A stretch of DNA of 64,000 nucleotides from a virus. The stretch is taken from positions 1 to 64,000 of the IMG/VR virus record IMGVR_UViG_3300047316_000726. One strand, given 5' to 3'. The notes below the pieces were generated by a model, which worked only from the letters and a program-made list of their open reading frames with translations, was not told where the DNA came from and made no database searches. Shown piece by piece: positions 1 to 64,000 of this stretch (within the stretch, counting starts at the first letter, position 1; each line of letters begins with the position of its first letter). The position numbers were made by a program, and so were the translations under genes.

Positions 1-900
1 TTACGAGGCTGGCGCGTCAAGCACGACGGCTTTGGGGTGGCACTGCGGGCACCGGAACGGAAGGCCCTGCTCGTTCTCCCGCTGACGGGTCCGCTCGTCA
101 CACTCCCCGCACCAGTGCGGCTTCGACGGCGCGGCGGTGCCCTTCGGCAGCGGCAGGCCCTCGATGCGTCTGACCACCACACCAGCTGGGTTGTGTGCGC
201 TGTCGATCCCTCCCGTCAGCTGCCGCCGCAGCCGGTCCTCGGTCCACTCCCCGTCGGCGAGAAGCACGTCGAGCTTCGGGGCGAGCCGGGTGATAGCGCG
301 CAGGTCGGGTCGGCACGTGACCGGCAGGTGCGTCAGCAGTCGAGTACCTGGGCTTGGTTGGGTTGGAGGTTCATCCAACCAACCAGCGTCTCTCCGCTGG
401 GGGCTGTCAGCTTCGCGGATGACCGGTGGTTGGTTAGTGACCGGTTTACTACTGGTTAGTGGATCACTCTGATCCCTTGGTGAGATCACAGTGATCTGAC
501 TAGACGGATCAGAGTGATCTGACTGCGACCCCGCTGGCTGTCCAGACAGATCAGAGTGATCCGACTGATCCTGACCAGCAGATTCGTTGAACTCCAACTC
601 GCCGACGAAGTCACTCGCCTCCTTCCGGTCCACCTGCGCCACTTCCAACTTGGCCAGGTTCAGCCGGTACAGGTTCGACGTGGAGTACCGACGCTTCTTC
701 AACAGCCACCCTTCGTCCTCCAAGCGCTTGCGGGCACGCTTCACCGTCGGCTCCGAGTACCCGGTGTCGAATGCCAGCGTGTCGATGCCCGGATAGCAGT
801 AGCCCTGGGCGTCGGAGTAGTTCGCGATGGCCAGCAGGACAGGCTTCTCCGGAGCCTTCATGGCGAGCCCACGCGCAAGGGCCTGCATCTGGAAGCTCAC
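1..900 (-). CDS. HTH replication-initiator-like protein with internal iterons
   Basis: 299 aa, GTG start at 900, complete. The N-terminal 75 residues form a helix-turn-helix/winged-helix domain of the kind found in phage and plasmid replication initiators (recognition helix around TGYSEPTVKRARKRL). The middle (about residues 110-150) is low-complexity Ser/Asp with repeated QSDHSD-like units, encoded by repeated palindromes in the DNA. The C-terminus has a zinc ribbon, C264-x2-C267 and C284-x2-C287. The gene is divergent from the GntR regulator. The architecture, an N-terminal DNA-binding domain followed by origin-like repeats inside the gene, resembles lambda O, so a replication-initiation role is inferred. 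A phage-type transcription regulator is the alternative. No helicase or polymerase motif is visible. Confidence 0.6.
   Translation of the reverse strand: MSFQMQALARGLAMKAPEKPVLLAIANYSDAQGYCYPGIDTLAFDTGYSEPTVKRARKRLEDEGWLLKKRRYSTSNLYRLNLAKLEVAQVDRKEASDFVGELEFNESAGQDQSDHSDLSGQPAGSQSDHSDPSSQITVISPRDQSDPLTSSKPVTNQPPVIREADSPQRRDAGWLDEPPTQPSPGTRLLTHLPVTCRPDLRAITRLAPKLDVLLADGEWTEDRLRRQLTGGIDSAHNPAGVVVRRIEGLPLPKGTAAPSKPHWCGECDERTRQRENEQGLPFRCPQCHPKAVVLDAPAS
354..387. repeat. Imperfect inverted repeat of TTGG/CCAA units
   Basis: TTGGTTGGGTTGGA is followed after 6 bp by TCCAACCAACCA, forming a strong stem inside the HTH initiator-like gene, about 75 bp from the palindromic iterons. It may be part of an origin structure. 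The function is not established. Confidence 0.4.
462..561. repeat. Four GATCA-N3-TGATC iterons (candidate replication origin)
   Basis: Four copies of the 13-bp palindrome GATCA-N3-TGATC lie at 462-474 (centre CTC), 484-496 (CAG), 507-519 (GAG) and 549-561 (GAG). Start-to-start spacing is 22, 23 and 42 bp, close to multiples of two helical turns. They lie inside the coding sequence of the initiator-like gene, as the iterons of lambda ori do inside gene O. Candidate initiator binding sites. Confidence 0.55.
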
Positions 901-1028
901 GTATCACCGCCTTGACCTGGCCCGACACGCTGGTGATCACTCGGTATGCGCAGGCCACAGATGTACTGGCACACTGAGCGCCCGGCAGGGTTTAGCAGCA
1001 CAGTGGTACGGCGTGAACGGGGACGAGG

Positions 1029-1757
1029 ATGTCGGAGTCGATCGGGGCACGGCCGCCCTACCTGCTCCTCGTAGACGACCTGCGTGCTCGTATCGACTCC
1101 GGCAAGCTGCCTCCTGGTGCACAGTTGCCGTCGACTGCAACGTTGATGGCCGAGTTCGAGGTATCCACACAGACCGTTCAACATGCCATCCGAGTGCTGA
1201 AGACCGAAGGCCTCGTCGAAGGACTCCGCGGCAAAGGCGTTTTCGTCAGAGAGCGCCAGGAGTTGGTCAGTCGGACGCCACCCACTGATGAGGGTGACCC
1301 TCACCAGGATGGCGTGCCGACGGTGGTTGACGTGTGGAAGGCGAAGCCGCCGAAGGACGTTGCTGCCGTGCTGGGACTGTCGGCCAGCGAGAAGGTGGCC
1401 ATTCGCCAGACGCTGTTGGCGGCGGAGGGAAGTCGACAGCCTGCCGAGATCGTCACCTCCTACTACCCACTCGACGTGGCCGGCGGGACAGGGAGGGCTC
1501 GTGTTACTCCGCCAGACGATGGCTCGACTGCCGAGCTTCGTCGGCTGGGCTTCGCGCCGCATCACGTGACCGAGGTGGTGCAGGCGCGGATGCCGACACC
1601 GGCGGAAGCCCGGACGTTGTGGTTGTCGGCTGGCGTGGCGGTGTTCCGGGTCTTGCGTTCGGTCCATGCCGAGGACGGCCGCGTGCTGGAGGTCACGGAC
1701 ATCGTCTTGAGTGGCGACCGCTACCAGTTGCGCTACGAGCTGCCGATTCACGACTGA
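1029..1757 (+). CDS. GntR-family transcriptional regulator with UTRA domain (KorSA-like)
   Basis: 242 aa, ATG start with GGGGA upstream. Residues about 10-75 are a GntR winged helix (RPPYLLLVDDLRARI at the start, VSTQTVQHAIRVLKTEGL as recognition region). Residues about 95-240 are a UTRA/HutC-type effector domain ending in DRYQLRYELP. GntR/UTRA repressors of this type (KorSA, TraR family) control transfer and excision genes in actinomycete plasmids and AICEs. The position, divergent from a replication-like gene and upstream of a transfer operon, supports that role. Effector unknown. Confidence 0.85.
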   Translation: MSESIGARPPYLLLVDDLRARIDSGKLPPGAQLPSTATLMAEFEVSTQTVQHAIRVLKTEGLVEGLRGKGVFVRERQELVSRTPPTDEGDPHQDGVPTVVDVWKAKPPKDVAAVLGLSASEKVAIRQTLLAAEGSRQPAEIVTSYYPLDVAGGTGRARVTPPDDGSTAELRRLGFAPHHVTEVVQARMPTPAEARTLWLSAGVAVFRVLRSVHAEDGRVLEVTDIVLSGDRYQLRYELPIHD

Positions 1758-1779
1758 GTTCCGCCTGGTTCTGTTGCCG

Positions 1780-1801
1780 CCCCTGGACATCTGTCCGGGG
1801 G
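1780..1801 (+). terminator. Rho-independent-like terminator after the GntR gene
   Basis: CCCCTGGACA and TGTCCGGGGG form a stem of about 9 bp with a very small loop, followed by CTTCTTGCT. It lies 23 bp after the GntR stop codon. Confidence 0.5.
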
Positions 1802-1826
1802 CTTCTTGCTGTCCCCGTTCGGCACA

Positions 1827-1855: not shown

Positions 1856-1861
1856 TGGATC

Positions 1862-2741: not shown

Positions 2742-4226
2742 ATGGACGAGCACACCAGGCACACGCCGGTGATGCCCTCCGAGATGCCAGAGCCGAACGG
2801 AGGCTGGCGCAACCGATGGGCGCGCCGGCGCGCTGAACGCGCCTTCGCCCGGAACTTGGACACTGACTCCCGCCAGCGCGCTGCCAGGCAGCACGCCGAC
2901 GACCGCGCGGCTGGCCACGGCGAAGACCCGATGCCCTGGCCCTTGCGGATCCTCGCGGCGTTCGTTGCGATCGTCGTGCTCGCCGTGGCGACGGTGATCG
3001 CGGCGGTAGTCGTCGGTGCCGGAGTCGGCTTCTACGACACCCACCTCGCCGTCAAGGACATCTCCTTCGCGGCCCTAGGAATCGCAACACCCCTCAACCT
3101 GCCCACGTTCACACCCCTGGCCACTGAGGGCCTGGTGTGGTCAACCACTCTGCTCGCGATCGTCATGGTTCTGCTGAACCGGACCGCGACCTTGTGGACG
3201 CGCAGCATGTGGGCCTTCGCGTCCATCGCGGCGTTCGTGAATACCTGGTACGCGATCCTCGACGAGCACGACCTGTTCGGCGGTGTGCTTCGAGGCAGCC
3301 TGTCGCTGGCAGGCCCGTACCTGGTGCACCTGTTCGTGTTGTGGTGCCGGCACCTGCGCACGGGACGGACGTTGGCGCAGGCCCGGATCGACATGGAGAT
3401 CCGCTGGCACACCATCGGGAAGATCGCGGTGGCCGTGCTGGTCATGGCGGCCCGGCACGGGCGTCATCCGGCGATCGCACTGCGAGCGTTCGGCTACTGG
3501 CTGGGCATCGACGGCTGGACCTATCGGGCCGCGTGGCGGGCCGCGTCTATCGGCTACCGGCGCCGCGTTCAGGAACGCCTCAATGGTGACGCCACGAAGA
3601 CGGCCGAGCGCCACCCGGCCGCGGCCAAAGACACCACTCCGGCCGCCAGTAGCGACGCGGCCGAACAGGGCGGCCAGGCCCCCGTTGATGAGGACCACAG
3701 CCAGCATGTAACTGGCGGCGTACTCACGGCCGAACGACCGGCATTCGACCCGGCCGAACTCGCCGAGTTTCAGGCGGCCCTGGATGACCCGGGTTTCACA
3801 TGGGAAAGGTTCGCTGACCAGCCAGGACAGGCGGCCGAACAGGGCGGCCGAGCGGCGGCCGACGACGGACGAACGACGCGGCCGAAGACGGCCGAGGATG
3901 CGGCCGGTCCCCGGCCGCAGGGTGGCCGGAACGCGGCCGGGCCGCCTACCGGCGACGGCCGTAAGACGACTGGACTACGTCTTCGGCCGCGTACACCCCG
4001 GCGGCCGAAGCAGCGACTGGCCGGCTCGTCGAAGGCGGCCGAGGTCGATGTCACCGATCTCCTCCCGGCCGCCCGCGAGGTAGCGGACGAACTGGGCGCC
4101 CGGCTGCGGCGCGACAGCCTGCTGAAGGGGCTTCGGGAGCGCGGAATGACGGTCGGCGGCCAGCGCAAGAAGGCGATCTACGACGCCGTGCGAGCCGAAC
4201 GAGACAGCGAATCTACCGGCAAGTAA
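2742..4226 (+). CDS. DUF2637-type membrane protein of the transfer operon
   Basis: 494 aa from ATG 2742, chosen because GGGAG lies 7 bp upstream; an earlier ATG at 2727 has no ribosome binding site. Hydrophobic segments at about residues 65-90, 100-150 and 160-195 match the DUF2637 membrane region, including the PLATEGLVW element. The C-terminal half is hydrophilic, Ala/Gly/Arg-rich and encoded by DNA saturated with CGGCCG. The last 60 residues look folded (DLLPAAREVADELGARLRR...), possibly a small winged helix. DUF2637 (Spd-like) proteins are a hallmark of actinomycete conjugative elements, where they are thought to assist spread of DNA between hyphal compartments. Confidence 0.75.
   Translation: MDEHTRHTPVMPSEMPEPNGGWRNRWARRRAERAFARNLDTDSRQRAARQHADDRAAGHGEDPMPWPLRILAAFVAIVVLAVATVIAAVVVGAGVGFYDTHLAVKDISFAALGIATPLNLPTFTPLATEGLVWSTTLLAIVMVLLNRTATLWTRSMWAFASIAAFVNTWYAILDEHDLFGGVLRGSLSLAGPYLVHLFVLWCRHLRTGRTLAQARIDMEIRWHTIGKIAVAVLVMAARHGRHPAIALRAFGYWLGIDGWTYRAAWRAASIGYRRRVQERLNGDATKTAERHPAAAKDTTPAASSDAAEQGGQAPVDEDHSQHVTGGVLTAERPAFDPAELAEFQAALDDPGFTWERFADQPGQAAEQGGRAAADDGRTTRPKTAEDAAGPRPQGGRNAAGPPTGDGRKTTGLRLRPRTPRRPKQRLAGSSKAAEVDVTDLLPAAREVADELGARLRRDSLLKGLRERGMTVGGQRKKAIYDAVRAERDSESTGK
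3601..4071. repeat. Dense array of CGGCCG hexamers
   Basis: About 19 copies of the palindrome CGGCCG occur in 470 bp, inside the 3' half of the DUF2637-type gene. Many fall in the codon context GCGGCCGAA (Ala-Ala-Glu). It may only reflect a low-complexity protein with biased codons, or serve as a protein-binding array such as a transfer locus. Confidence 0.5.
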
Positions 4227-4273: not shown

Positions 4274-4552
4274 ATGGCCGGAACCCGGCGCGGACCAGAA
4301 GGCAGCGGACGCCAGACCCGCGCCGAGCTGCGCCCGCAGGAACGACTCGACCGCCTCACCGAGCGACTGGCCAACGCCCGCAACCAACGGGAACGAGTCG
4401 CCTGGGCCGCAGCGCACCTGCGCGCGGTGATGGCAGACCCGGCCGTGACCGACGAGCTGGACCGCCAAACCGGGGACCAGGCAGTCGGCTTCCTGCTGAA
4501 GCTCGCCGACCAACTCCACGACGCCGCCACCAGCTCACGGAGACAGACGTGA
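4274..4552 (+). CDS. Small helical protein, unknown
   Basis: 92 aa, ATG preceded by GGGAGA. Charged and Ala-rich (RPQERLDRLTERLANARNQ), predicted mostly helical. No recognised family. Coupled by GTGA overlap to the next membrane-protein gene, so it belongs to the transfer operon. Confidence 0.6.
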   Translation: MAGTRRGPEGSGRQTRAELRPQERLDRLTERLANARNQRERVAWAAAHLRAVMADPAVTDELDRQTGDQAVGFLLKLADQLHDAATSSRRQT

Positions 4553-5002: not shown

Positions 5003-5572
5003 ATGAGCCAGCTTTGGGACCAGCTTTGGACGACCGTCGGCGGGGGATGCGCCTTCATCGCAGTCGCCCTGTTCCTCAAGTGGAAGAAGCCCACCTGGAT
5101 CTGGCTACGGGCCGCGGTGATGCTCTGCGGCGGCTGGGTCGCCGTCGGCCTCGTCGCGATGGTCCTCAAAACGGCTGTCGCGAACAAGGACAACGACGGC
5201 TGGGTGCAACAGGGACTTCGGTGGCTGGGCGACCAGGCCTTCGGGATCCCCAAGGTCGGCAACATCGCCAAGGCCCTGCTCGACGGGCTCGCCACCGGCC
5301 TGCCGTGGATCGTGGCGCTGCTCCTGGTCGTCTGGCTGATCCACGACATGTTTCCGCGCCTGTGGGCACTGCGCGGTGGACGCGGGGGAGGCGCGTGGGG
5401 GGCGCGCGGCGAGACGGCGGCCGGTGGCGGCTACGGCAGGCCCGCCACCACCGTCGCGAGCAGGTCAACGGTCCATGAGGCCGAGCCGCACACCATGTGG
5501 GTCGCCCTGATCGTGCCCGCCGCCGTTGTCCTCGTGCCGCCGCTGGCGGCCGCCTTGAAGATCGGAGCCTGA
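5003..5572 (+). CDS. Polytopic membrane protein of the transfer operon, unknown
   Basis: 189 aa, ATG with GGAGAGAAGGG upstream. Hydrophobic segments at about residues 12-27, 35-55, 98-115 and 165-188; between the last two lies a Gly-rich loop (RGGRGGGAWGARG). No recognised family. It ends one base before the next start, so it is co-translated with the following gene. Confidence 0.6.
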   Translation: MSQLWDQLWTTVGGGCAFIAVALFLKWKKPTWIWLRAAVMLCGGWVAVGLVAMVLKTAVANKDNDGWVQQGLRWLGDQAFGIPKVGNIAKALLDGLATGLPWIVALLLVVWLIHDMFPRLWALRGGRGGGAWGARGETAAGGGYGRPATTVASRSTVHEAEPHTMWVALIVPAAVVLVPPLAAALKIGA

Positions 5573-5573: not shown

Positions 5574-6584
5574 ATGGAGTTGGCCCTGCTCGTCGCGTGG
5601 CTGGTGATCCACGCCGCATATCGGGGAGGTGTGGGCACCTACTGCGCGGTCAAAAAGATCGAGCCGCCGTGGGTGAAGAACAAGACCGAACGCCTGGTCA
5701 ATCGCGAGATCCGCCAGGGCCGCCGCTACGAGGCACTGCGGTCGAAGCGGACCCTGCGCGGCTTCTTCGGCCGCCTGTGGGGCGACCTGTGGGAAGACGC
5801 GAACCGTGCCCAGGACGAGCGCCGTGCCTGGCGCCTCAACGGCGCACCCCGCCGGTCGTGGCGTGACCGCGCCAACCAGTGGCGGGATGCGACTCAGCCT
5901 GGGATGCGGACACGGCTGGCCGGCGTGTGGTTGCAGGAGTGGTGGCAGCGTGCCCGCCAGTGGGGCGAGCGGTTGATGTCCGCCTCCCTCCCTCACCGCA
6001 AGGACACCGACGGCGAGGAGCTGCCGGAGGCGCCCGATCTGGAACCGGTCGCCGCGCCTGAGGTACCTGAGCCGCAGCAGGAGCCGACACCGCAGGACAA
6101 CCCGCCACCACCACCGCCACCACCAGCCGCCGAACCCGAACCTGCGCCGCAGCCTCCGCCGGCCGTTGTCGAGCCTTCCCCGACCGGGCGCCCGCAACTC
6201 CGCGCCGTCCCGAACCCCCCAACCCAGCCGGTGACCCCACCAGCTGGAACCGACACGCAAGGAGAACAACCAGACATGACCGCCCCCGCAGAGATCACCA
6301 ACGTCCAGCGCGTACGCCAGTTCGCCGAGCAGGTCGAGAAGCACGGCAACGAGGACTGGCCCGCGAAGCTGGACACCGCCGAGCAGCAGATCACCGCGAT
6401 CGGCCTGAACAACGACCCGGCTGTCACGGCCGCGCTCGGCGAGATTCGGGAGGCAGTGGCGAGGGTCGCCGCCGGCGGAGTCGCACTCGCGGCTGCCCTG
6501 CCGAGGCACGAGGACGCCGCAGAGCGCATCACCGGCCTCGGTGACGCCGCCGCCACCAACATCACCGCCTACCAGAACCAGTAA
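5574..6584 (+). CDS. Membrane-anchored proline-rich transfer protein, unknown
   Basis: 336 aa. One N-terminal hydrophobic segment (ELALLVAWLVIHAAY), then a basic Trp/Arg-rich region (residues 30-140), a Pro-rich spacer (about 160-240, runs of Pro) and a C-terminal predicted helical region. The layout, anchor plus basic cytoplasmic domain plus Pro spacer, fits an accessory protein working beside the DNA translocase encoded next. No recognised domain. Confidence 0.6.
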   Translation: MELALLVAWLVIHAAYRGGVGTYCAVKKIEPPWVKNKTERLVNREIRQGRRYEALRSKRTLRGFFGRLWGDLWEDANRAQDERRAWRLNGAPRRSWRDRANQWRDATQPGMRTRLAGVWLQEWWQRARQWGERLMSASLPHRKDTDGEELPEAPDLEPVAAPEVPEPQQEPTPQDNPPPPPPPPAAEPEPAPQPPPAVVEPSPTGRPQLRAVPNPPTQPVTPPAGTDTQGEQPDMTAPAEITNVQRVRQFAEQVEKHGNEDWPAKLDTAEQQITAIGLNNDPAVTAALGEIREAVARVAAGGVALAAALPRHEDAAERITGLGDAAATNITAYQNQ

Positions 6585-6605
6585 CCCGTTTCGACCGATC
6601 CCGTG

Positions 6606-6632
6606 CGCGCCAGACCGACCATGTCTGGCGCG
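6606..6632. repeat. Hairpin in front of the translocase gene
   Basis: CGCGCCAGAC (6606-6615) and GTCTGGCGCG (6623-6632) form a perfect 10-bp stem with a 7-base loop, in the 88-bp gap before the TraB-like gene. There is no U-tract, so an attenuator, mRNA-processing site or transfer-associated DNA site are all possible. Confidence 0.4.
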
Positions 6633-6672
6633 TGCGGAACCAGCCGGAACCCACAGACGAGAGGGCGGTGCG

Positions 6673-8763
6673 ATGGACATCGGTGAACCACAACCAGGAA
6701 CAGCACTGCTGGGCGGCCCGGAGCCGTTCACCGTCGACAGTGACACCACACCCACCAGGCCGTGGCGGACCACGTTGCGCCGCCAGTTCATGCCGCTCCC
6801 GGTGGCTGGTTTGCTGTGGTGCGCGGCCACCGTCGCGCACGCGGCACCGGAAACCTGGCCGGTCGCCGCACCGTCGGCGGTCGCCGTCTACTTCGTCGCC
6901 GCCGTGGCCTTCTGGACCAGCTGGGCTGCTGAGCATCCGGAGACCCGCGCCCAGCGGCGCCGCTGGGCCACCACCGTCATCATCGCTGGCGGGGCATGGC
7001 TGCTGTGGGCCGCGACATTCGGCCCCACCGAGGTCGCGACGCTGCTGCTCGCCGGTGGGGGTGCGGCGCTGATGCTGCCGTACTGGACTCGCAACAGCCC
7101 CTGGCAACCCCACCTCGATCACGACGACGAGGAAGCCCTCGAGGAGTTGCCTGAGGCGCCGACGCTGGAGCCAGTCGAGGTCCTCGACTCCCGAACCTCG
7201 ACCCAGATGTTCTGGGACACCGTCGTTGCCGTGACCGTGTCCGCACTCCGCGGCACCTACCTGTGCGACCCGCAGGTCACCGACGAGTTCGAGCAGTACA
7301 CCATCCAACTCGCGGGCGGAACCCAAACCACCGCCGGCGCGATGGGCGCGGCGACGAACGTCGCCTCAGCGTTCGGTCGCGGCCTGGACACCGTGTCGGT
7401 CCTCCCTCACCCCAGCGGCGCCCAGGACAAGGCGTTGCTGCGGCTACCCATCGCGAACCCGCTACAGACCACGTTCTGGTACCCGGGCCCCGAGCAGGCC
7501 ATCGACCTGCGCGACGGCAACATCCGGGTCCTCATCGGCTACCGCGGTGACGGCACCCCCGTGTGGTGGACGTTCTACCTCGCCGACTTCGGCGGTCTCG
7601 GTGGCGCTGTGTTCGGCGACACCGGATCCGGTAAGAGCGAACTGCTCCGCAGCCTCATCACGTCCGCCGCCTACAGCAACCTGATCACCCCGATCGTCGC
7701 GTGCCCGCAGGGCGGCGCCAGCTATCCGATGTGGATGAACAACGGGCACTGGCCCGCGGCGAACATCGACGAGATCCTCCGGCAGGGCCGCGCCCTGTTG
7801 AAGGCGCACGCCTCCCGCTCCGTGCTCAACAAGCTGATGAACCGCGACATCCACATCCCCACCCCGCAAGCACCCGGCCTGATCTGGGTTGTCGACGAGT
7901 TCCACAAGATGAAGGGCAACACCGAGTTCTACGACATCGCCGACACCCTCGAACGCGAAGGCCGCAAGACGTTCATCCGCCTGCTGGCCGCAGACCAGGA
8001 CCCCAGCGTCCCCGCCACCTTCGGGAACCGGTCGACACTGCGGTACTCGCTGCTGGCCGCCCAGGCGGTCACGCTGCGCCTGGGCGGCAACGTCGACTCC
8101 ATGCTGCCGGGCATGCAGCTCGATCCCAGCAAGCTCGCCAAAACGTTCCCCGACGGCACACCCACCGCAGGCCTGGGCGTCCTGGTGGGAGAGTCCGAGG
8201 CGTTCCGGGTCGCTCGCCTGCGCGACGCCGCCGGGCTGGCCGCCAACGCGCCGACCGGCGCCATCGAGCCCGCAGTCGCGAACCGCATGGGCGAGGACTA
8301 CACCCAGCGCCACGCCCGCAACCTCACCGACATCGCCGAAGCCGCCGCCGAGATGGAGCAGTGGGACCCCGAACTGGTCGCCGCCCTCGTCGCGGACAAC
8401 CCGGAGCTGGCCGCCGCACTACCGCGGGTACGAGCGGAGCAGGCACGCCGTGCAGCCCAAGCCGCCACCCAGCCCGCCGGAACACCTGCCGCAACTGTGG
8501 TGCTGGATGTGCCGTCCATTCCCACGCTGCAGCTCATCCTCCCGTCGCCCACGGCACCGCCGCGTACGTGGACGTGCGTCGAGCGCGTCGACGACCTGCT
8601 CCGCCAAGGCATCACCCAGTTCGGCGAACTCATGGCCAGGGCCCGCAAGCCTGATGGCACGACCTACTCCGAGACCGCGATCCGCGGAGCACTGCGCGAC
8701 CTGATCAACCAGGGACGTGCGCGCGACGGTGGCCACGGCCTCTTCGAGACCACAGCAGCCTGA
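6673..8763 (+). CDS. FtsK/SpoIIIE-type conjugal DNA translocase (TraB-like)
   Basis: 696 aa from ATG 6673, preceded by GAGAGGG. Two N-terminal membrane segments at about residues 40-80 and 95-135. The ATPase core has a Walker A GDTGSGKSE near residue 315 and a Walker B LIWVVDEF near 403-410. The C-terminal 70 residues form a winged-helix-like DNA-reading domain (VDDLLRQGITQFGELM, TAIRGALRDLINQGRA), as in TraB and the FtsK gamma domain. In Streptomyces-type conjugation one hexameric TraB translocates double-stranded DNA between mycelial cells, so this single gene could provide transfer. It is the core of the module. Confidence 0.85.
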   Translation: MDIGEPQPGTALLGGPEPFTVDSDTTPTRPWRTTLRRQFMPLPVAGLLWCAATVAHAAPETWPVAAPSAVAVYFVAAVAFWTSWAAEHPETRAQRRRWATTVIIAGGAWLLWAATFGPTEVATLLLAGGGAALMLPYWTRNSPWQPHLDHDDEEALEELPEAPTLEPVEVLDSRTSTQMFWDTVVAVTVSALRGTYLCDPQVTDEFEQYTIQLAGGTQTTAGAMGAATNVASAFGRGLDTVSVLPHPSGAQDKALLRLPIANPLQTTFWYPGPEQAIDLRDGNIRVLIGYRGDGTPVWWTFYLADFGGLGGAVFGDTGSGKSELLRSLITSAAYSNLITPIVACPQGGASYPMWMNNGHWPAANIDEILRQGRALLKAHASRSVLNKLMNRDIHIPTPQAPGLIWVVDEFHKMKGNTEFYDIADTLEREGRKTFIRLLAADQDPSVPATFGNRSTLRYSLLAAQAVTLRLGGNVDSMLPGMQLDPSKLAKTFPDGTPTAGLGVLVGESEAFRVARLRDAAGLAANAPTGAIEPAVANRMGEDYTQRHARNLTDIAEAAAEMEQWDPELVAALVADNPELAAALPRVRAEQARRAAQAATQPAGTPAATVVLDVPSIPTLQLILPSPTAPPRTWTCVERVDDLLRQGITQFGELMARARKPDGTTYSETAIRGALRDLINQGRARDGGHGLFETTAA

Positions 8764-11259: not shown

Positions 11260-11298
11260 AGGCCCTCGTGCTCACCAGAACGGTGAGCACGAGGGCCT
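11260..11298. terminator. Strong bidirectional terminator between the two modules
   Basis: A perfect 17-bp inverted repeat, AGGCCCTCGTGCTCACC / GGTGAGCACGAGGGCCT, with a 5-base loop. It separates the plus-strand transfer operon from the end of the minus-strand phage late operon and marks the junction of the two modules. Confidence 0.85.
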
Positions 11299-53483: not shown

Positions 53484-53522
53484 GGGTTTTCCTCTCGTGT
53501 CGGTCGTGCCTGTGCAGGGCGG

Positions 53523-53765: not shown

Positions 53766-53779
53766 GCGTGCCTCCTTCG

Positions 53780-54477: not shown

Positions 54478-54482
54478 GACGG

Positions 54483-55405: not shown

Positions 55406-55410
55406 GGTGG

Positions 55411-56985: not shown

Positions 56986-57143
56986 AGGGACTCACCCCGC
57001 AACTCGGATACGGCAGCCAGCTGAGTCGCGAGATCCGCATCCCCGAGCCCGAGAAGCCGGACGATCCGCACGTTGCGGTCCCACTCGCTCCAACCCAGGA
57101 GCGCCAGGGACGCATCGACTTCGAGGACGTTCGGGGCGCTCAC
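56982..57143 (-). CDS. 53-aa phage protein
   Basis: GTG 57143 to TGA 56982, coupled to both neighbours (GTGA and ATGA overlaps). Begins MSAPNVLEVDASLALLGWSE and continues RNVRIVRLLGLGDADLA, helical. Too short for ordinary gene finders but clearly coding by context. Confidence 0.6.
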   Translation of the reverse strand: MSAPNVLEVDASLALLGWSEWDRNVRIVRLLGLGDADLATQLAAVSELRGESL

Positions 57144-57664
57144 GACGCGTCACCCCGCAACGACCGAACCTCGGCCAGCATGCGCTCCCTGATTGCGGTC
57201 CCTGCAATGCCGTCCGTGACGATCCCCGCCTCCACACAGCGGGCGATCTCCCGGTCGGTGAACACCTCGGTCGGGTACTGGTCGGCGATGCTCTGAAGGT
57301 GATCGGCGACTAGCGTGGCGACGGCGCGCTGGTGGTCTGGGCTGGCGGTGAGGGTCTTGCGGGCGGCGCGCATGTACGCGGTGTGCCAGTACTGCGTCCG
57401 CCCTTTCCAGGTCATCTTGGAGTCGTCGCCGTGCTCAACCTCGAACAGTCGCTGCGCCTCGGCCTCAACGTCGGCGAGTGACGGCTCGGGCTGCTCGGTC
57501 GGCTCGGTAAGCGTCTGCCACCGAGCGAGCAGCTTGCTGACCTCGGACCGGATCTTGCCGTTGGACCAGTTGTTGTCGCGTGCCTCGATCGCGATGCCGG
57601 TCATGACCGGTAGGAGGTCATCGGCAACGGTGACCTCCTGGCTGAGTCTGGACGTGGATCCCAC
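57140..57664 (-). CDS. Phage protein, unknown
   Basis: 174 aa. EVSKLLARWQTLTEPTEQ, KMTWKGRTQYWHTAYMRAA, TEVFTDREIARCVEAGIV. Mixed helical, no domain recognised. Early gene run. Confidence 0.55.
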   Translation of the reverse strand: MGSTSRLSQEVTVADDLLPVMTGIAIEARDNNWSNGKIRSEVSKLLARWQTLTEPTEQPEPSLADVEAEAQRLFEVEHGDDSKMTWKGRTQYWHTAYMRAARKTLTASPDHQRAVATLVADHLQSIADQYPTEVFTDREIARCVEAGIVTDGIAGTAIRERMLAEVRSLRGDAS

Positions 57665-57697
57665 GGGACCCTCCCTGCTGGGGTTCGGAGGTGGTGG

Positions 57698-57922
57698 TCA
57701 GGACAGGCTGTGGGCAACGACGAGGGCCAGGGACAACACCGCCACGACGGTGACCGCGGCCAGGATCAACGGCCAGCGGCGGCCTGCGGGTGCGGCGGCT
57801 GCCAGGACACGGAGTGCCTGCTCGACATCGGAGTCCACGTCGGCGTCGGCCGGGCTGGACGCGAGGGCGGCCTTGACCCTCACAGGCAACGGATCCTCGG
57901 TCTGGTCGTTGCTGGCGGTCAT
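57698..57922 (-). CDS. Small C-terminally anchored membrane protein
   Basis: 74 aa from ATG 57922 (GGGAG upstream). Acidic soluble part and one C-terminal membrane segment (PLILAAVTVVAVLSLALVV). Unknown. Confidence 0.6.
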   Translation of the reverse strand: MTASNDQTEDPLPVRVKAALASSPADADVDSDVEQALRVLAAAAPAGRRWPLILAAVTVVAVLSLALVVAHSLS

Positions 57923-57958
57923 TGGGTCGCTCCCTGGCTGGCTGAAGTAAGCGGAGGG

Positions 57959-57994
57959 GGTGGCCGTTCCGGGCGGAGAGCCGAAACGGCCACC
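57959..57994 (-). terminator. Terminator/attenuator hairpin in the early operon
   Basis: GGTGGCCGTT (57959-57968) / AACGGCCACC (57985-57994), perfect 10-bp stem, 16-base loop, between two minus-strand genes. Confidence 0.55.
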
Positions 57995-58001
57995 AGGCGG
58001 G

Positions 58002-58562
58002 TCAGTAGCTGGCCTTGGCGACAGCGAGGTCGGCCAACTCGGCGGCGTAGTCCCGGCGCCCCTGGGCGCACGTGCCATCGCAGTACTCGGTGTCGCCGTT
58101 GAGACTCGGGTGCCCTGAGCAGAAGTCGGCCAAGTTGAGCTCCGCACGCGCCGCGCATTCGGCCTTATCCGCCTCGTCGTGAGCCAGCTCGACCGCCTTG
58201 GCCATGATCTCCGCCTCGGTAACGTCGATCCGGCCGGTACCCACGGTCAGCGCTCTCTCGGCCGCCACGTGGGCGATGAAGCGGGTACGCATGGCGTTGT
58301 TCGTCTCGCTCGCCTCGGCGTGCGCGAGATCCAGGCATGCCTGCCGGTCGTTCAAGTCGCGGCACCAGCGAGTCGCCTGCTCGGAATCGCGCGTGTCCAA
58401 GAAACCGCCGAGGCCGTCGACACCCCAGTTGCGCCACACGATGCGGCCCTGCGCGGTGGTGCGGGTGGTGTCGATGACGGCGTACTTGGTGCCGCCGCCG
58501 TCGCACGTCGGTGCGCTGTACGACTCGACTGCGTAGCGGTCGGCGGTGTCGGTGGTGGTCAT
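58002..58562 (-). CDS. Phage protein, unknown
   Basis: 186 aa. YAVIDTTRTTAQGRIVWRNW, EADKAECAARAELNLADFC; several Cys. No domain recognised. Resembles the small analysis-resistant proteins of actinophage early regions. Confidence 0.55.
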   Translation of the reverse strand: MTTTDTADRYAVESYSAPTCDGGGTKYAVIDTTRTTAQGRIVWRNWGVDGLGGFLDTRDSEQATRWCRDLNDRQACLDLAHAEASETNNAMRTRFIAHVAAERALTVGTGRIDVTEAEIMAKAVELAHDEADKAECAARAELNLADFCSGHPSLNGDTEYCDGTCAQGRRDYAAELADLAVAKASY

Positions 58563-58626
58563 CTCGACTCCCTCGGTTGGCTGGCGGGTCTGGGTTGGTG
58601 TCCTGGTCTCGTCATGAGCGAGACGG

Positions 58627-58641
58627 CCCCGGCGGCCGGGG
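58627..58641 (-). terminator. Short GC hairpin in a 103-bp gap
   Basis: CCCCGG / CCGGGG with a 3-base loop, between minus-strand genes. Confidence 0.3.
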
Positions 58642-58665
58642 ACAGGACTGGGGTTGTTGAGCGCC

Positions 58666-58980
58666 TCACGCGTAGTACCTGCGCTGTACCCACCGGGGCT
58701 GGGTGTCCACAGCGGCCCGGATGATCTCGGCAGGGGCGAGGCCCTGCTCGCGGAGTGCGCTCACCTTGAACGTGTCGAAGATCAGTTCGCGGCCAGCAGG
58801 GTCGATGAACGTCTTGCAGGGGTGTGCGTCGGCACTCCGGTTGCCCATGCCGATCAGGATCTCTTCCTGACGGTCGTGGGCGATCCACACGTTCGCGAGG
58901 ACGTCGTGTTCGACAGCGATTTGCAGGGCGAGGATGGCGGTGGAGAGGACCTCGGCGGCGGGGCGGAGGGTGGCGATCAT
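58666..58980 (-). CDS. Phage protein, unknown
   Basis: 104 aa from ATG 58980 (GGAG upstream). ALQIAVEHDVLANVWIAHDR, FDTFKVSALREQGLAPAEI. No domain recognised. Its start borders the palindromic operators, so it is probably under the same control as the divergent gene. Confidence 0.55.
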   Translation of the reverse strand: MIATLRPAAEVLSTAILALQIAVEHDVLANVWIAHDRQEEILIGMGNRSADAHPCKTFIDPAGRELIFDTFKVSALREQGLAPAEIIRAAVDTQPRWVQRRYYA

Positions 58981-59001
58981 GTCGGGCTCCTTGCTGGTCG
59001 A

Positions 59002-59054
59002 TAGTGGCTTGCCACTAAAGAATGGCACACCGGTCGACAAGTGGCAAGCCACTA
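59002..59054. promoter_or_regulatory. Two palindromic operators between divergent genes
   Basis: TAGTGGCTTGCCACTA at 59002-59017 and AGTGGCAAGCCACTA at 59040-59054, centres 37 bp apart, with the core AGTGGC-N2-GCCACT in both. They flank a degenerate half-site AATGGCA. Dimeric repressor sites between the divergent genes starting at 58980 and 59070. Confidence 0.65.
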
Positions 59055-59069
59055 CGCAATACTTTCTGC

Positions 59070-59546
59070 ATGAGCAACGAGCACGCCGACCCGCCCCTCA
59101 CCGTGAGGCCCCCGCTACCAGTCCTCGAGGCAGCCAAGGACGCGCTCGAAAGCCGCGGCCTCGACATGCGCGGATTCGTTGTTGCATCCCTTGACGAACT
59201 CGCCGACGAAACCGACCAAGTGCTCGCCCGCCTCGCGCACCGCTGGCCGCCACCCAAACCCCGCGGCCAGCCCCGCCCACCGGCCGGCGTCATTTACGCA
59301 TTCCGCACAGCCGACGACCCATCGACTTGGTACGGGCCGCTGGACGCCCTGCCAGCAGGCGAGTTCGAGACCGGAACCCTGGACTTCCAGCCGGTTGCAC
59401 CGAACCGCTTCACAGGACAGTTGGAGGTGCGCTACGGGCCGGTCGACGATGACGTACTGCCCAGCTTCTACGCGTTCACGACGGTGGACGGGAAGCGAGT
59501 CAGACCAACGACTGAGGTGCACGGGTTGCTGTTCGGCGCTGACTAG
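59070..59546 (+). CDS. Operator-controlled small protein, RHH-like N-terminus
   Basis: 158 aa from ATG 59070. No Shine-Dalgarno, so probably leaderless. The N-terminal 50 residues (PLPVLEAAKDALESRGLDM, GFVVASLDELADETDQVL) resemble a ribbon-helix-helix or dimer domain; the rest is a beta-rich domain. One of the few plus-strand genes in this region; may be the autoregulator of the operators. Confidence 0.6.
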   Translation: MSNEHADPPLTVRPPLPVLEAAKDALESRGLDMRGFVVASLDELADETDQVLARLAHRWPPPKPRGQPRPPAGVIYAFRTADDPSTWYGPLDALPAGEFETGTLDFQPVAPNRFTGQLEVRYGPVDDDVLPSFYAFTTVDGKRVRPTTEVHGLLFGAD

Positions 59547-59566
59547 CCTCGGACTGACTGCGCCGA

Positions 59567-59830
59567 TCACTGGACGTCGCTCTGGATCGGTGGCCCCTCA
59601 CGGTCATCGGCGCGCGGATGACCTCGGTCAGCCGGTGGCCAGCGGGCGTCGACCGCGAACAACAACGCCAAGTAGACGGTCATGTTGGTCCCGTGGATGT
59701 AGACGTCCGGACCGATGCCCTTGAGGAACGCCATCAGGAAGCCGACCGACTCGCCGGTGAGGGCAACGCAGATCAAGGCCAGCCCGAAGCTCGCGAGCAG
59801 AGGTCGGCCGGACCGGCTGAGTAGCGCCAT
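59567..59830 (-). CDS. Small membrane protein
   Basis: 87 aa. Two membrane segments (PLLASFGLALICVALTGES and NMTVYLALLFAVDARWP). Unknown function. Convergent with the preceding plus-strand gene without a strong terminator. Confidence 0.5.
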   Translation of the reverse strand: MALLSRSGRPLLASFGLALICVALTGESVGFLMAFLKGIGPDVYIHGTNMTVYLALLFAVDARWPPADRGHPRADDREGPPIQSDVQ

Positions 59831-59879
59831 CAGTCCTCACTCTCGGGGGTAGTGACGGGAGTGAGCCGCAGTGCGCCGC

Positions 59880-60377
59880 TCACCACAGCGTCGCCTGGGT
59901 CATAGCTGTGCGTGCCGACGGCTTGAACTCCAACACCGGCGGCTTCAACGGCATGTCCTTGGCCTTGGTGTGGAACCGCAGCGTCGTCCACGACGCGTCG
60001 ATCGCCTGGCTGGCCGGGCGCACGAAGTACGCGACCGTCACCCCGGTCAGTTCGGCCAGGGCGCACAACTGCTTCCACGTCGGGTACAGGTCACCGGACT
60101 CCCACCGGTCGACGTCCGGCTCGCGTGCCCCGCAGGCTTCGTCCACGGCTGGCCCGTACAGGCCCTTCGCGTCCAGCGCGGTGGTGATGTAGTGCGGTAC
60201 CACCAGTCCTGCCGCCCAGCGCCGCTGGGCCTCCTGCTCGCCGCGTACACGCCGGTACTGGGCGTTCTGCCGCTGCTGCGCCTCACGATGCTGCCGCCTG
60301 CGACCCTCCACCGTGGTAGCGGGCAGACGCTCGCCAGGGTGGCCCCACCGGCGTCGTTCGGTCTCATCGTCAGGCAT
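59880..60377 (-). CDS. XRE-like DNA-binding phage regulator
   Basis: 165 aa. Basic N-terminal 55 residues. About residues 60-120 look like an XRE-type HTH (VDEACGAREPDVDRWESGD, PTWKQLCALAELTGVTVAYF). C-terminal domain unknown. A candidate immunity or early regulator. Confidence 0.6.
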   Translation of the reverse strand: MPDDETERRRWGHPGERLPATTVEGRRRQHREAQQRQNAQYRRVRGEQEAQRRWAAGLVVPHYITTALDAKGLYGPAVDEACGAREPDVDRWESGDLYPTWKQLCALAELTGVTVAYFVRPASQAIDASWTTLRFHTKAKDMPLKPPVLEFKPSARTAMTQATLW

Positions 60378-60651
60378 CGCGGACTTTCCTCCTCAGCCGT
60401 CGCCAGCGGGCGAACCAGCCCTCCCTCCGCCAGCAACAGTCGCCCGGCATGTTGACGTACAACGCTCCCCGCGACACCCACGTCCGACCGCACGTGCCGC
60501 ACTCCCACACGGTTCCCACCGGAAACTCCGACGACCGGGGCGGGATGCCGTAGTGGGTGCCAGGGAACGCGCTGCCCTCCTCGACGGGCTTCCACTCCCA
60601 GCCCGGCGCGCACGAGTGGCCAGTCGGCGGCCGGTACACGACGCGGCTCAC
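60370..60651 (-). CDS. Small Cys protein, unknown
   Basis: 93 aa from GTG 60651 (AAGGA upstream), overlapping the previous stop. VWECGTCGRTWVSRGALYV, a short ribbon; Trp/Arg-rich basic C-terminus. Confidence 0.55.
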   Translation of the reverse strand: MSRVVYRPPTGHSCAPGWEWKPVEEGSAFPGTHYGIPPRSSEFPVGTVWECGTCGRTWVSRGALYVNMPGDCCWRREGWFARWRRLRRKVRDA

Positions 60652-61124
60652 GTGGCCCATCCTTCTTGCCAGCCGGGCACCTGGTGCTGGTACCGGGACG
60701 CCACGGCCTTCACGATCCGATCGCGCCGTGCATCCACACCGCAGTCACAGGGACCTCCAGCCCTGTCGTTCAGGCAGCCCGACCCTGGTTCGGCGTTGTC
60801 CTCATGCGGGTCGATGGCCTGCGCACACGAGTACCAGCCGTCGTCATCGAGGTAGAGGTGACGCCAGGACGAGACCTCGTCGAGGATGGCCAGGTCTGCG
60901 TCGCAGCCGTCGAGTACCGCCTGCGGTTCGTTCAGGCCGATGTGGACGCGGGCGTCGACCTCGTACACGTAGTCGACTATCCGGTCCATCGGGTGCTGGC
61001 CGATGATGTCGCCGCCGTCGACCGTCCACACCGCACTGCCCGTGGCCTTCTGTGCGGCCTCCGCAGCCGCGCGAACCGTCGCGATGGCCGCGGTCGTCCA
61101 CTCCACCAGGTCGGTGTCAGCCAT
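60648..61124 (-). CDS. DUF6221-like phage protein
   Basis: 158 aa from ATG 61124. AATGSAVWTVDGGDI-like start region and ASRYQHQVPGWQEGW end; the layout matches DUF6221-type actinomycete proteins common in prophages. Function unknown. Confidence 0.6.
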   Translation of the reverse strand: MADTDLVEWTTAAIATVRAAAEAAQKATGSAVWTVDGGDIIGQHPMDRIVDYVYEVDARVHIGLNEPQAVLDGCDADLAILDEVSSWRHLYLDDDGWYSCAQAIDPHEDNAEPGSGCLNDRAGGPCDCGVDARRDRIVKAVASRYQHQVPGWQEGWAT

Positions 61125-61698
61125 CGGCGTGCTCCTCTTCCGCGCGGGCCTTGTCGTAGTAGCGGACGGCATCCGCCAACGTCGGCGGAGACGGCGGGTC
61201 TTCGCCGAACAGTTCGGCGAGCTTCGTATCCACCGCATGCATGTAGCCACGCGTCAGTGCCACGCCCGCTAGACGCTGCATCTGTTCCCGGCTCACCTGG
61301 CTGTTCGGCGGCAAGCCCAGGATGGACCGCCACTCATCGTCCAAACCGAGTACCTGTGCGACGTCCTCGCCGGTCAGTGTCTCGTCGGAGCGCACTGTCC
61401 ATTCGGGGATGTCCACGACAGGCCATTCGCGGTTTGCGGCTTCAGCGGCTTCCTGGTCGCGCAGGTAGGCGCGGGCCTGGAACCAGTACTCGAACCCCTG
61501 CTCACGGCGTACCCGCTCCAGCCGGAGAAACCGGGCGGTGGCGCCAGCCGCCCACGCCAAGTCGACGAGCTCGGGCGGAAGCTTTCGGGAGTCGACCACC
61601 GTGAATCCCTGATAGCAGGGTGTCTTCGGCTCCCCGGCGTGGTAGGAGACGACGCTGTTGACAGGCGGGTCAGGCTGACGGGGCTGAAGCATCGGCAC
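61117..61698 (-). CDS. Phage protein, unknown
   Basis: 193 aa from GTG 61698 (GGAGG upstream) or ATG 61692. LPPELVDLAWAAGATARFL, LTGEDVAQVLGLDDEWRSI. Overlaps the XRE gene by 29 bp. Confidence 0.55.
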   Translation of the reverse strand: MPMLQPRQPDPPVNSVVSYHAGEPKTPCYQGFTVVDSRKLPPELVDLAWAAGATARFLRLERVRREQGFEYWFQARAYLRDQEAAEAANREWPVVDIPEWTVRSDETLTGEDVAQVLGLDDEWRSILGLPPNSQVSREQMQRLAGVALTRGYMHAVDTKLAELFGEDPPSPPTLADAVRYYDKARAEEEHADG

Positions 61699-61987
61699 CC
61701 GGCACCTCCTCGATGTCGGTGACGGTGAACTGGAGTTCGGCGCCGACCGCCAGGGCGTAGCGGGAGATGGAGGACAGCCACGGATCGCCGCCGGTCCGTT
61801 CGAAGTCGGACACCTGCGACCGCTTCCACCCGCACCGCTCGGCAACCTCCTTCCTCGACAAGCCCTTGCGGTGGCGTACCGCGACCAGGTCGTAGATCAG
61901 CTGGCCGTGCGCCTCGGCGAGCCGCTGGGCGTGCTGGTTGAGCGGATCGGTCATGTCGATGCCCAAGAGTTCGTTCAGGTCGGTCAC
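61670..61987 (-). CDS. XRE-family regulator
   Basis: 105 aa. HTH at about residues 35-75: LVAVRHRKGLSRKEVAERC, WKRSQVSDFERTG. Resembles a phage Cro/CI-size regulator without a peptidase domain. Overlaps the previous gene by ATGA. Candidate early control protein. Confidence 0.8.
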   Translation of the reverse strand: MTDLNELLGIDMTDPLNQHAQRLAEAHGQLIYDLVAVRHRKGLSRKEVAERCGWKRSQVSDFERTGGDPWLSSISRYALAVGAELQFTVTDIEEVPGADASAPSA

Positions 61988-62340
61988 TTCAGGGCCTCCC
62001 GGATTGTCAATGCCAGCTGCACCAGGTGCCCGTCGGCCTCCGAGATGCGGTCGAACCAGTGGGTGGCCGCATCCCTGAACGCGGCCTCAAGGTGCTCGGC
62101 GATGGCCGGGTTCATCGCTGCGATCCACGCCTTGTCCGGCTTGTTCGGCGCCCAGTCGTCCGTGTCCGTCTTGAGCACGTTCGCCGGGTGCGCAGGTGTC
62201 CCGCCGAACTCCTGCTGGTGCACGAGCTCCACACAGCCCCAGCCGTCCTGCCAAACCCACGGGCCAAGCGTGGCGGCTGTGGCGGCAGCGTGGAGCAGGT
62301 CGGCGGTTTCCCGCAGGACCAGCCACGGCTGATCAGTCAT
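61984..62340 (-). CDS. Phage protein, unknown
   Basis: 118 aa. WLVLRETADLLHAAATAAT and WQDGWGCVELVHQQEFGGT. No domain recognised. Confidence 0.55.
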   Translation of the reverse strand: MTDQPWLVLRETADLLHAAATAATLGPWVWQDGWGCVELVHQQEFGGTPAHPANVLKTDTDDWAPNKPDKAWIAAMNPAIAEHLEAAFRDAATHWFDRISEADGHLVQLALTIREALK

Positions 62341-62548
62341 GGTCGCCGCCGGTCAGTTCCAGGCCGAGCATGTCCAGCAACTGGCGGCAGTCGTCGGCGT
62401 CGAGTGAGTTGTCGGCGACCCGGAGAGCTGCTGTACGGGCCTCATCGGGCGAGTTCTTGATCATCGACTTCGGCTGGTTCACCGCCCACCTCGTCGCCGC
62501 GCACGGATAGAACGACGCCGACACGCTCTTGTCTCGTTGGTCAACCAC
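62333..62548 (-). CDS. Small phage protein, unknown
   Basis: 71 aa from GTG 62548 (GGAGG upstream). SASFYPCAATRWAVNQPKS, then a helical tail. Overlaps both neighbours. Confidence 0.5.
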   Translation of the reverse strand: MVDQRDKSVSASFYPCAATRWAVNQPKSMIKNSPDEARTAALRVADNSLDADDCRQLLDMLGLELTGGDHD

Positions 62549-62876
62549 TGGCCACCTCCTCCGGTGTGAGCGCAACCCGTGCGGCCTGCACGGCAGCCTT
62601 CAACCGGGCCTTGACCGCCGCGCCGTTGGTGATGGTGCAGCCGCGTCTGACTTCACCGTCAGGGATGCACCTGTTCGCGGCCAGGCACGCCATGATCAGC
62701 TCCTGGATGACTGCGAGGTTCGGGTTCTCGGCCTCCATGCGCTTGCGGACGGCGGACACCACTTCACCCATCGCCGCCAGGTCTTCCGGTGACGGCGGCA
62801 TCGAGCCCCGGACGATGATGATCTCTTCCTGCCCGTCGACAGTGACAGGGACGGGACGGCATTCGTCAGCCACCAC
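62541..62876 (-). CDS. Phage protein, unknown
   Basis: 111 aa. Helical (GEVVSAVRKRMEAENPNLAV); GCTITNGAAVKARLKAAVQA at the C-terminal end. No domain recognised. Confidence 0.55.
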   Translation of the reverse strand: MVADECRPVPVTVDGQEEIIIVRGSMPPSPEDLAAMGEVVSAVRKRMEAENPNLAVIQELIMACLAANRCIPDGEVRRGCTITNGAAVKARLKAAVQAARVALTPEEVASG

Positions 62877-63045
62877 CGGTCTCCTCTCTCGGTATCCAGA
62901 TCTCCCACATGCCGCAGCCGCCGCAACGGGTCTGGATGTGCGTCCTGCCCATCTCCTGAGCCCAGTCGTGCCAGATGCCGTAGTCGCTCGGTGCCGGGGT
63001 GTGCTGCTCGACCTGAGGACACACCGGCACAGGCTGGCCGGTCAC
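62866..63045 (-). CDS. 59-aa zinc-ribbon-like phage protein
   Basis: GTG 63045 to TGA 62866. TGQPVPVCPQVEQHTPAPSD then TRCGGCGMWEIWIPREE, a small Cys pair. GGAAGG upstream. Just below the size cut-off of ordinary gene finders; coupled to the next gene. Confidence 0.55.
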   Translation of the reverse strand: MTGQPVPVCPQVEQHTPAPSDYGIWHDWAQEMGRTHIQTRCGGCGMWEIWIPREETGGG

Positions 63046-63287
63046 TGGGGTCTGCCTTCCAGGACAGGGATGCCGGGCTCGTTCGCGATGCGCTCGATCT
63101 CCAGCGCGAGCCCTTCGAAGTGCGACCGGCGTGCGGGCGATAGCAACGAGGCGTGATCAGCCACCAGCACGCGGAGAACGGCGACCGCGGCATCCCGCGC
63201 GCCCTGCCTGGCGTAGTCATCGGCCGGGGTGGTGGGGATGAGCGCAAGGGTCGCGGCTTGAACGAGCCGCTCAGCAAGGTCAGCCAT
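63042..63287 (-). CDS. Small helical phage protein
   Basis: 81 aa. ADLAERLVQAATLALIPTT, then ADHASLLSPARRSHFEGLA, helical. Overlaps both neighbours. Unknown. Confidence 0.55.
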   Translation of the reverse strand: MADLAERLVQAATLALIPTTPADDYARQGARDAAVAVLRVLVADHASLLSPARRSHFEGLALEIERIANEPGIPVLEGRPQ

Positions 63288-63927
63288 CGCCAACTCCCGC
63301 CAGCTTGGCGAGCCGCCGATACTTCTCGACCGTGGAGTGCCCGTCCCACCGTGCACGAGGATCATCCGCGGCCACCTGCTCGACATGGCCGAACAGGTCC
63401 ACGTCCTCAGGGGACAGATGCCACGAGCACTGGCCCTGCGGGGTATTGACGTACACCACAGGCCACTCCGGCTCCGCAGGGTCGCTGTAGGCCCACACCG
63501 ACGGGAACAAGGACGCCAGGACGGCGACAAGCCGAGCACGTTCCCGGTACACCACGCGCTCCTGCTGCTGCGCGTCGTGCAACTCTTTCGCCAGTTGCCG
63601 CCAACGTGGCGACTCGAACGCGACCAAGGCTGCGATTGCAGCGATGGTCTGCCGTTCGCCGCCGGACAGGTGGATCTGTCGCTGCCCTCGCCCGATCATC
63701 TCGACTGTGTTCGGCCCGAGGCTGATCTTGAACTCGCGTAGTGCCTCAGCGGCAGCGTCCACCACATCGAGCGGGGCGTTCGGTGCGGGCGGCCGCCACC
63801 CGGCGACGATCAGTGCGTCCACGACCCTCGTCGCGTTCTGACGGGCATTCCCAACCTGCTCACCCCACAGAGCCGTAGTGCCGGTGCGTACGCCCGCGTC
63901 CCTGGAGGATTCCTGTTGCTCAGGCAT
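63280..63927 (-). CDS. Actinophage conserved protein with WDGH motif
   Basis: 215 aa. N-terminal helical half. The C-terminal part (YVNTPQGQCSWHLSPEDVD, FGHVEQVAADDPRARWDGH, TVEKYRRLAKLA) is a recurring actinophage signature, also found in early regions elsewhere. Function unknown. Confidence 0.6.
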   Translation of the reverse strand: MPEQQESSRDAGVRTGTTALWGEQVGNARQNATRVVDALIVAGWRPPAPNAPLDVVDAAAEALREFKISLGPNTVEMIGRGQRQIHLSGGERQTIAAIAALVAFESPRWRQLAKELHDAQQQERVVYRERARLVAVLASLFPSVWAYSDPAEPEWPVVYVNTPQGQCSWHLSPEDVDLFGHVEQVAADDPRARWDGHSTVEKYRRLAKLAGVGDG

Positions 63928-64000
63928 CTCGGTCCCCGTCCTGGCTGTCCAGGATCAACCGCACCTGCTCGACAGCGGTCGGGCTGTCCAAGATCCCCAA
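63920..64000 (-). CDS. Phage gene cut by the window end (3' part only)
   Basis: The last 26 codons of a minus-strand frame, ending VRLILDSQDGDRDA with stop at 63920-63922, overlap the next gene's start by 3-8 bp. The start lies beyond the window. Confidence 0.5.
   Translation of the reverse strand: MGILDSPTAVEQVRLILDSQDGDRDA

Follow-up and report, generated by a model that had tools for sequence, protein, structure and literature searches.

A probable temperate actinobacterial siphophage genome with a plasmid-type TraB transfer cassette

Overall description

The window, which is the whole 64,000-nucleotide stretch that we analysed and corresponds to bases 1-64000 of the 77,174 bp IMG/VR record IMGVR_UViG_3300047316_000726, is best explained as most of the genome of one temperate actinobacterial siphophage that also carries a complete transfer cassette of the kind found in plasmids and in actinomycete integrative and conjugative elements (AICEs). 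The cassette occupies the first 11.2 kb, the siphophage late operon runs from 11.3 to 37.3 kb and further phage genes fill 37-64 kb (Table 1); the virus is one of soil actinobacteria. Gene calling relied on a codon-usage script in place of a standard gene finder. We are highly confident that the transfer (tra) module and the phage are one element, since the record is contiguous, the junction is a terminator, the composition is unbroken and relatives carry both modules. That this element is one temperate phage with a cassette working in DNA transfer we hold to be reasonably probable.

The junction between the two modules

The tra and late operons run towards each other and meet at a stem (11260-11298) with a fold far more stable than that of shuffled sequence; U residues come after it on the strand of the late operon. 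Attachment-site (att) repeats and host genes, which an initial annotation of the stretch had named as possible signs of two elements at about 11.2 kb, were both looked for there: the only att-like repeats are 13-mers at chance level with no link to other places, and there is no host gene. The boundary is a bidirectional terminator, which supports a single element. The search for an att site near the recombinase also gave only chance-level repeats. Neither tetranucleotide frequencies nor the GC content at third codon positions (GC3) shows a break between the tra and phage parts, and the composition carries no signal of a recent acquisition of the tra module.

The TraB protein and the transfer cassette

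Taken as a single protein, the product of the 6673-8763 gene gives a sub-threshold match to FtsK; profile-profile comparison (hhalign) against ten TraB-like proteins reaches 99.96% across 606 columns. In an alignment of 11 proteins the Walker A motif (GDTGSGKS), the Walker B motif, the C-terminal winged-helix region and the membrane anchor are all present in the window TraB, which is full length and aligns end to end with TraB-like proteins of plasmids, AICEs and plasmid-phages. Six window genes (starting at 1029, 2742, 4274, 5574, 6673 and 8874) match tra-module proteins of plasmids or AICEs from actinobacterial genomes, and the gene order of the module recurs across independent genomes, so chance is not an issue. 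Judged by its genes, the tra operon is complete relative to those of AICEs and plasmids. A second, half-length TraB paralogue follows TraB in the plasmid/AICE modules of three of the compared genomes (G131, 72946-74013 in script coordinates; G329:C238, 9803-10840; G153:C155, 18441-19208; such handles denote compared genomes or records and their contigs) and is absent from the window.

The translocase, the GntR/UTRA regulator and the replication-like gene with iterons were already named in the initial annotation, and all three are borne out. The regulator is 36% identical to the GntR protein of the G131 module and 43% identical to that of G009, and small genes lie between it and the membrane protein in the DUF2637 position. 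After the small conserved protein come two membrane proteins and then the second protein with a hydrophobic N-terminus. The DUF2637 label itself stands in part: the 2742-4226 product has no direct match to the profile, and assignment by hidden Markov model (HMM) was rejected, so that the label is kept by indirect homology only, through proteins found by blastp in G230 (5993-7237; 43% over 61 amino acids) and G153 (25535-27208; 23% over 194 amino acids) that do match DUF2637. Similarly, the proposed transglycosylase is weak by HMM but has homologues among the module proteins of G131, G153 and G230. The initiator gene diverges from the GntR/tra operon, and its repeat GATCASAGTGATC, allowing up to two mismatches, is found 22 times in the whole window against 2.7 expected.

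For the TraB family, a hexamer that recognizes clt through a winged helix has been described (PMC3583192), as have control by KorSA and conjugation by a single FtsK-type protein (PMC3218068). By analogy, the GntR (KorSA-like) repressor would govern a divergent promoter region, from which the O-like initiator (with its iterons) and the tra operon are driven in opposite directions; repressors of the GntR/KorSA type would silence transfer. TraB would be a membrane-anchored hexameric pump, the winged helix of which recognizes a cis site (putative clt) on the element, and would move double-stranded DNA across a cell wall loosened by the transglycosylase. The element could then pass through hyphal contacts in addition to travelling in virions, TraB providing a second exit route or spread within the mycelium. 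We infer from these family properties that the window TraB moves DNA between cells, and the element is likely to be conjugative.

Relatives and the phylogeny of TraB

Three relatives carry both modules: G009, G017 and G203:C29, the last being a contig of an actinobacterial genome. A comparison of relatives across the junction, as the initial annotation had proposed, finds the modules kept together; each also occurs alone elsewhere (the tra module in plasmids and AICEs, the phage part in fragments in which no FtsK gene was found), but not at this exact boundary. Only two of 30 records with a related terminase have an FtsK gene (G009 and G017), and in both the genes in tra order lie next to virion genes. 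G009 (IMGVR 3300005436_000501) has a late operon syntenic with that of the window together with GntR, DUF2637, TraB and YdjM genes. G017 (3300048996_000163; 132.7 kb) has a portal, a tape measure protein, a TraB module and a serine integrase, and is probably a complete circle because it has a 127 bp end repeat. In both records the tra module is placed elsewhere relative to the late genes than in the window. The G017 terminase (L092:14409-15521) has an intein-like C-terminal junction and the helicase (L091:10370-14830) has extra unrelated domains; both look intein-containing.

G203:C29 contains host genes, a partial tRNA-His and a tra-like module with a DUF2637-like gene, and about 20 kb past this module a complete convergent late operon (capsid 51-54%, portal 39%). 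Its recombinase is a pSAM1-type tyrosine recombinase other than that of the window. We read the partial tRNA-His as a putative att copy; a second att site was not found in G203. A separate G203 contig also begins inside a TraB gene, so the contig picture is incomplete. Much of the late operon is common to the window, G009 and G203.

A related TraB occurs in nine of 297 genomes of one actinobacterial class (E <= 1e-10), G308 among them. In G308:C359 the GntR, DUF2637, small conserved and TraB genes converge on a late operon which starts with holin-like genes, continues with the 58% homologue of the 13173-14141 protein and then has tail and tape measure genes; terminase, portal and capsid genes were not found in this contig, and a serine integrase is present. 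The 7.4-60 kb part of this contig (L162-L164) is a head-less hybrid or a decayed prophage. G009, G017 and G308 have serine integrases, unlike the window, which has a tyrosine recombinase. TraB of the window kind is found in seven of the 35 genomes of G308's order (E <= 1e-25), and because of this enrichment over the class the host of the window virus may fall within that order. Scans of viral contigs with the TraB proteins of the window, G009 and G017 returned only the G009 and G017 records themselves.

The nearest relatives of the window TraB are those of the G131 and G153 modules and of G308 (clade support 99/98); no phage structural genes were found by homology in the G131 and G153 genomes. 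A single origin of the phage-linked TraB proteins is rejected by the approximately unbiased (AU) test (p 2.4e-7 with seven rows and 2e-4 with four rows), with long branches as a caveat. As the test rejects one clade, the combination of phage and TraB probably arose several times, the exact number being unsure from the long branches.

Use of the cassette and production of particles

Several observations weigh against a working phage with a working cassette. The window TraB is just 21-37% identical to its relatives and has no match to the NCBIfam model NF041214 (plasmid_TraB; equivalog cut-off 800 bits), on which the G009 and G017 proteins score 47 and 31 bits; by sequence it is a divergent relative and not the equivalog. 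An AlphaFold model of TraB had a pLDDT of 39, was unusable and was not used. No clt site was identified: only the inverted repeat at 6588-6650 was found, with no clear direct-repeat array. No tra genes turned up in the closest terminase-sharing fragments, though these fragments are partial. The 77,174 bp record is incomplete and has no end repeats or end overlap. A minus-strand frame continues past its right end and the record starts exactly at the stop codon of the initiator gene, so it is either fragmentary or has been trimmed, the start at a gene boundary suggesting trimming. The late operon contains an IS630-like element, oriented opposite to it in the gap between portal and protease, which may impair virion production and may be polar on the protease, capsid and tail genes. 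The initial annotation was silent on both the extent of the record and this transposase.

Among the alternatives, the one that survives best, unlikely as we consider it, is a single element with a cassette that is unused between strains and either spreads phage DNA through the septa of the host's own mycelium or is a decaying remnant. TraB/Spd systems also serve intramycelial spread, several small membrane proteins accompany TraB, no clt was identified and the G203 TraB-like gene is short (584 amino acids) and followed by transposase-like genes. Against this, the window TraB is full length, both its Walker motifs and its winged-helix region are intact, and the operon is complete beside those of AICEs and plasmids. 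Rather improbable, and somewhat more so, is a phage-derived conjugative element that has lost the ability to make particles. Phage-plasmids of the P1-like kind gained mobilization functions after losing phage genes, and their conversion to mobilizable plasmids is documented (PMC10879196); the IS630-like insertion and the G308 contig, which lacks head genes but has kept tail genes and tra, would agree with such a course. However, every structural reading frame detected in the window is open, including the portal and protease on either side of the insertion, and the record is classed as a virus in IMG/VR. The terminase large subunit, portal, protease, tape measure and tail genes confirm the siphophage that the initial annotation had described. 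Two separate elements side by side (a prophage next to an AICE or plasmid), or chimeric assembly of the metagenome, would fit a metagenomic contig that lacks end repeats, begins at a stop codon and is perhaps trimmed at its end, and modules that are each found separately elsewhere, but are very improbable given the unbroken composition, the absence of att repeats and host genes at 11.2 kb, the like convergent junction in a bacterial genome contig (G308) and the presence of both modules in a circular record (G017) and in G203:C29. A temperate phage with a functional transfer cassette is the reading that we prefer.

Maintenance of the element

Neither ParA/ParB nor a large serine integrase was found in the 77 kb record. 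As an autonomous plasmid the element would have its O-like initiator and iterons, while ParA/ParB and an end overlap were not found and the relatives look integrative: large serine integrases occur in two of them and one lies beside a partial tRNA in a genome contig. Of the initial description, a candidate conjugative phage-plasmid, the single element is supported and plasmid maintenance stands as one possibility: in the lysogen the element may be an episome or integrated. The recombinase does lie in the interior of the phage genes, as was noted then; the argument drawn from this, that the map is not that of a prophage opened beside attP, is weak, because the enzyme is XerC-like and related to that of pSAM1 and need not mark attP. 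An AICE is defined by an integrase with att sites, a Rep protein and an FtsK-type Tra protein without virion genes; here virion genes are present and an att site was not found. Two features of a conjugative plasmid-phage of the pZL12/PhiNon1 kind are found together on one contig: genes for the packaging and structure of a tailed phage (terL, portal, protease, tape measure protein, tail and lysin) and an FtsK/TraB-type gene with accessory tra genes.

Other features of the window

The remaining features are collected in Table 1. The fibre of the late operon is collagen-like. The WhiB-family regulator at 54483-54998 is 75% identical over 65 amino acids to the G009 copy and 70% identical to a copy on a plasmid of Kitasatospora NBC_01302. 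No near DNA match to positions 1-12 kb was found in plasmids, and phages gave 48 bp terminase matches only; a genome scan with the window protease gave no match.

Table 1. Positions of features in the window and the basis of each assignment
Feature	Position	Strand	Basis
Phage/plasmid replication initiator, lambda O type (HTH_36)	1-900	-	Pfam HTH_36 E 2.5e-12; PHROG 391 'replication initiation O-like' E 2.6e-19
Four exact iterons GATCASAGTGATC within initiator gene; candidate origin, lambda O arrangement	462-561		Repeat search
Putative divergent control region, initiator versus GntR/tra operon	901-1028		Gene map, sequence
GntR/UTRA regulator, KorSA-like by position	1029-1757	+	Pfam GntR and UTRA E 4.5e-17 and 2.9e-16
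Membrane protein in DUF2637 position of tra module	2742-4226	+	Position; indirect homology
Small conserved module protein	4274-4552	+	42% to G308 and 44% to G087 module proteins
Small protein with several transmembrane segments, Spd-like by position	5003-5572	+	Hydropathy and position
Conserved module protein lying directly before TraB, N-terminus hydrophobic	5574-6584	+	28-30% to G153 and G329 homologues
Inverted repeat just upstream of TraB; possible clt or attenuator	6588-6650		Repeat search, fold
DNA translocase of TraB/FtsK type with an N-terminal membrane segment, an FtsK ATPase and a C-terminal winged helix	6673-8763	+	Alignment, profile comparison
Secreted transglycosylase-like module protein	8874-9362	+	Weak HMM matches; 30-37% to G131, G153 and G230 module proteins
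YdjM-type membrane protein; G009 also has one beside TraB	10437-11210	+	Pfam YdjM E 1.5e-16; 1.3e-20 in G009
Perfect 17 bp inverted repeat, bidirectional terminator at tra/phage junction	11260-11298		Fold -41 to -43 kcal/mol, z -7.6 and -8.5
Siphophage late operon (fibre, lysis, tail, tape measure, capsid region, protease, portal, terminase)	11319-37347	-	Gene map, profile matches
Phage protein phrog_19005; 58% to counterpart at matching convergent junction in G308	13173-14141	-	Profile match, comparison
Endolysin-like (GH25)	14189-14980	-	Profile match
Tape measure protein	19085-22378	-	PHROG 2723 E 1.3e-92
Probable major capsid protein	27768-29507	-	Position; 51-56% to homologues in like position
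Head maturation protease-like	29540-31414	-	Profile match
IS630-like insertion directly after portal stop codon (transposase 31542-32639)	31450-32650	+	DDE_3 E 8e-22; imperfect terminal repeats; portal C-terminus
Portal fused to minor head protein	32647-35310	-	PHROG 2662 E 7.5e-87
Terminase large subunit	35339-36802	-	PHROG 38 E 9.8e-105
Probable terminase small subunit	36814-37347	-	Position only; PHROG 3678, function unknown
tRNA-Leu (CAA), complete, in phage accessory region	44222-44296	-	tRNA search
Protein adjoining recombinase; 40% to pSAM1 61006-61626	50794-51432	-	Sequence comparison
Tyrosine recombinase, best NCBIfam XerC; 30% to pSAM1 recombinase	51429-52994	-	Profile match, comparison
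Phage early/accessory operon including WhiB; runs on to 77.1 kb beyond the window	53085-63927	-	Gene map

Comparison with known systems

Transfer by phages and transfer by conjugative elements are generally regarded as separate routes. The combination of phage and FtsK/TraB-type genes is not new: pZL12/PhiZL12, pSAM1 and PhiNon1 already have it, and to call such an element unusual, as the initial annotation did, was an overstatement. A literature search did not find a survey of TraB cassettes in phages. We tentatively suggest, while leaning slightly against it, that TraB cassettes were captured on repeated, independent occasions by temperate actinobacterial phages, the result being a polyphyletic class of 'integrative and conjugative prophages' (the window, G009, G017, G203 and G308) that could leave as a particle or as naked double-stranded DNA through hyphal contacts. 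If true, this class would extend beyond the three plasmid-phages described so far, with no tie to plasmid maintenance. A lineage that keeps both routes would have two host ranges, one limited by receptors and the other by contact, and could keep moving after losing its virion functions, making it a natural bridge from phages to AICEs. Selection may favour the trait in hyphal bacteria, given that the tree test points to more than one origin of the combination.

Among the closest known systems are the tra modules of AICEs and plasmids (G131, G153, G329 and Kitasatospora NBC_01302), which have homologous proteins in the order GntR ... DUF2637, small protein, two transmembrane proteins, TraB; unlike the window, phage structural genes were not found in them by homology. 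PhiNon1 (Nonomuraea gerenzanensis; NZ_LT559120; 59,257 bp), which has been reported both as a circle and integrated at a tRNA (PMC5431353), is a tailed phage with the order DUF2637, small proteins, TraB-like protein (27% to the window TraB), but belongs to another phage lineage, with no structural homologue found, and its TraB lies elsewhere in the tree. pSAM1 (Streptomyces ambofaciens; NZ_CP012383; with relatives of about 90 kb) resembles the window in its terminase large subunit (32% to the protein starting at 35339), tyrosine recombinase (30%; 51429) and the neighbour of the latter (40%; 50794), and also carries GntR and TraB-like genes; tblastn detected no homology for the other structural proteins. 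It differs in having ParAB and in its TraB, which sits on a separate long branch. pZL12/PhiZL12 (Streptomyces; GQ919031; 90,435 bp) is cited in PMC3583192 as an experimentally studied conjugative plasmid-phage the transfer of which was tested. Like the window, it is a tailed phage with an FtsK/SpoIIIE-type Tra protein (pZL12.71c; ~21% identity to the window TraB in the alignment), a GntR protein and a recombinase; unlike the window, it has ParA/ParB and its tra gene adjoins the terminase and not the lysis end. The window belongs to a lineage separate from pZL12, pSAM1 and PhiNon1, which seems to have gained its pump independently.

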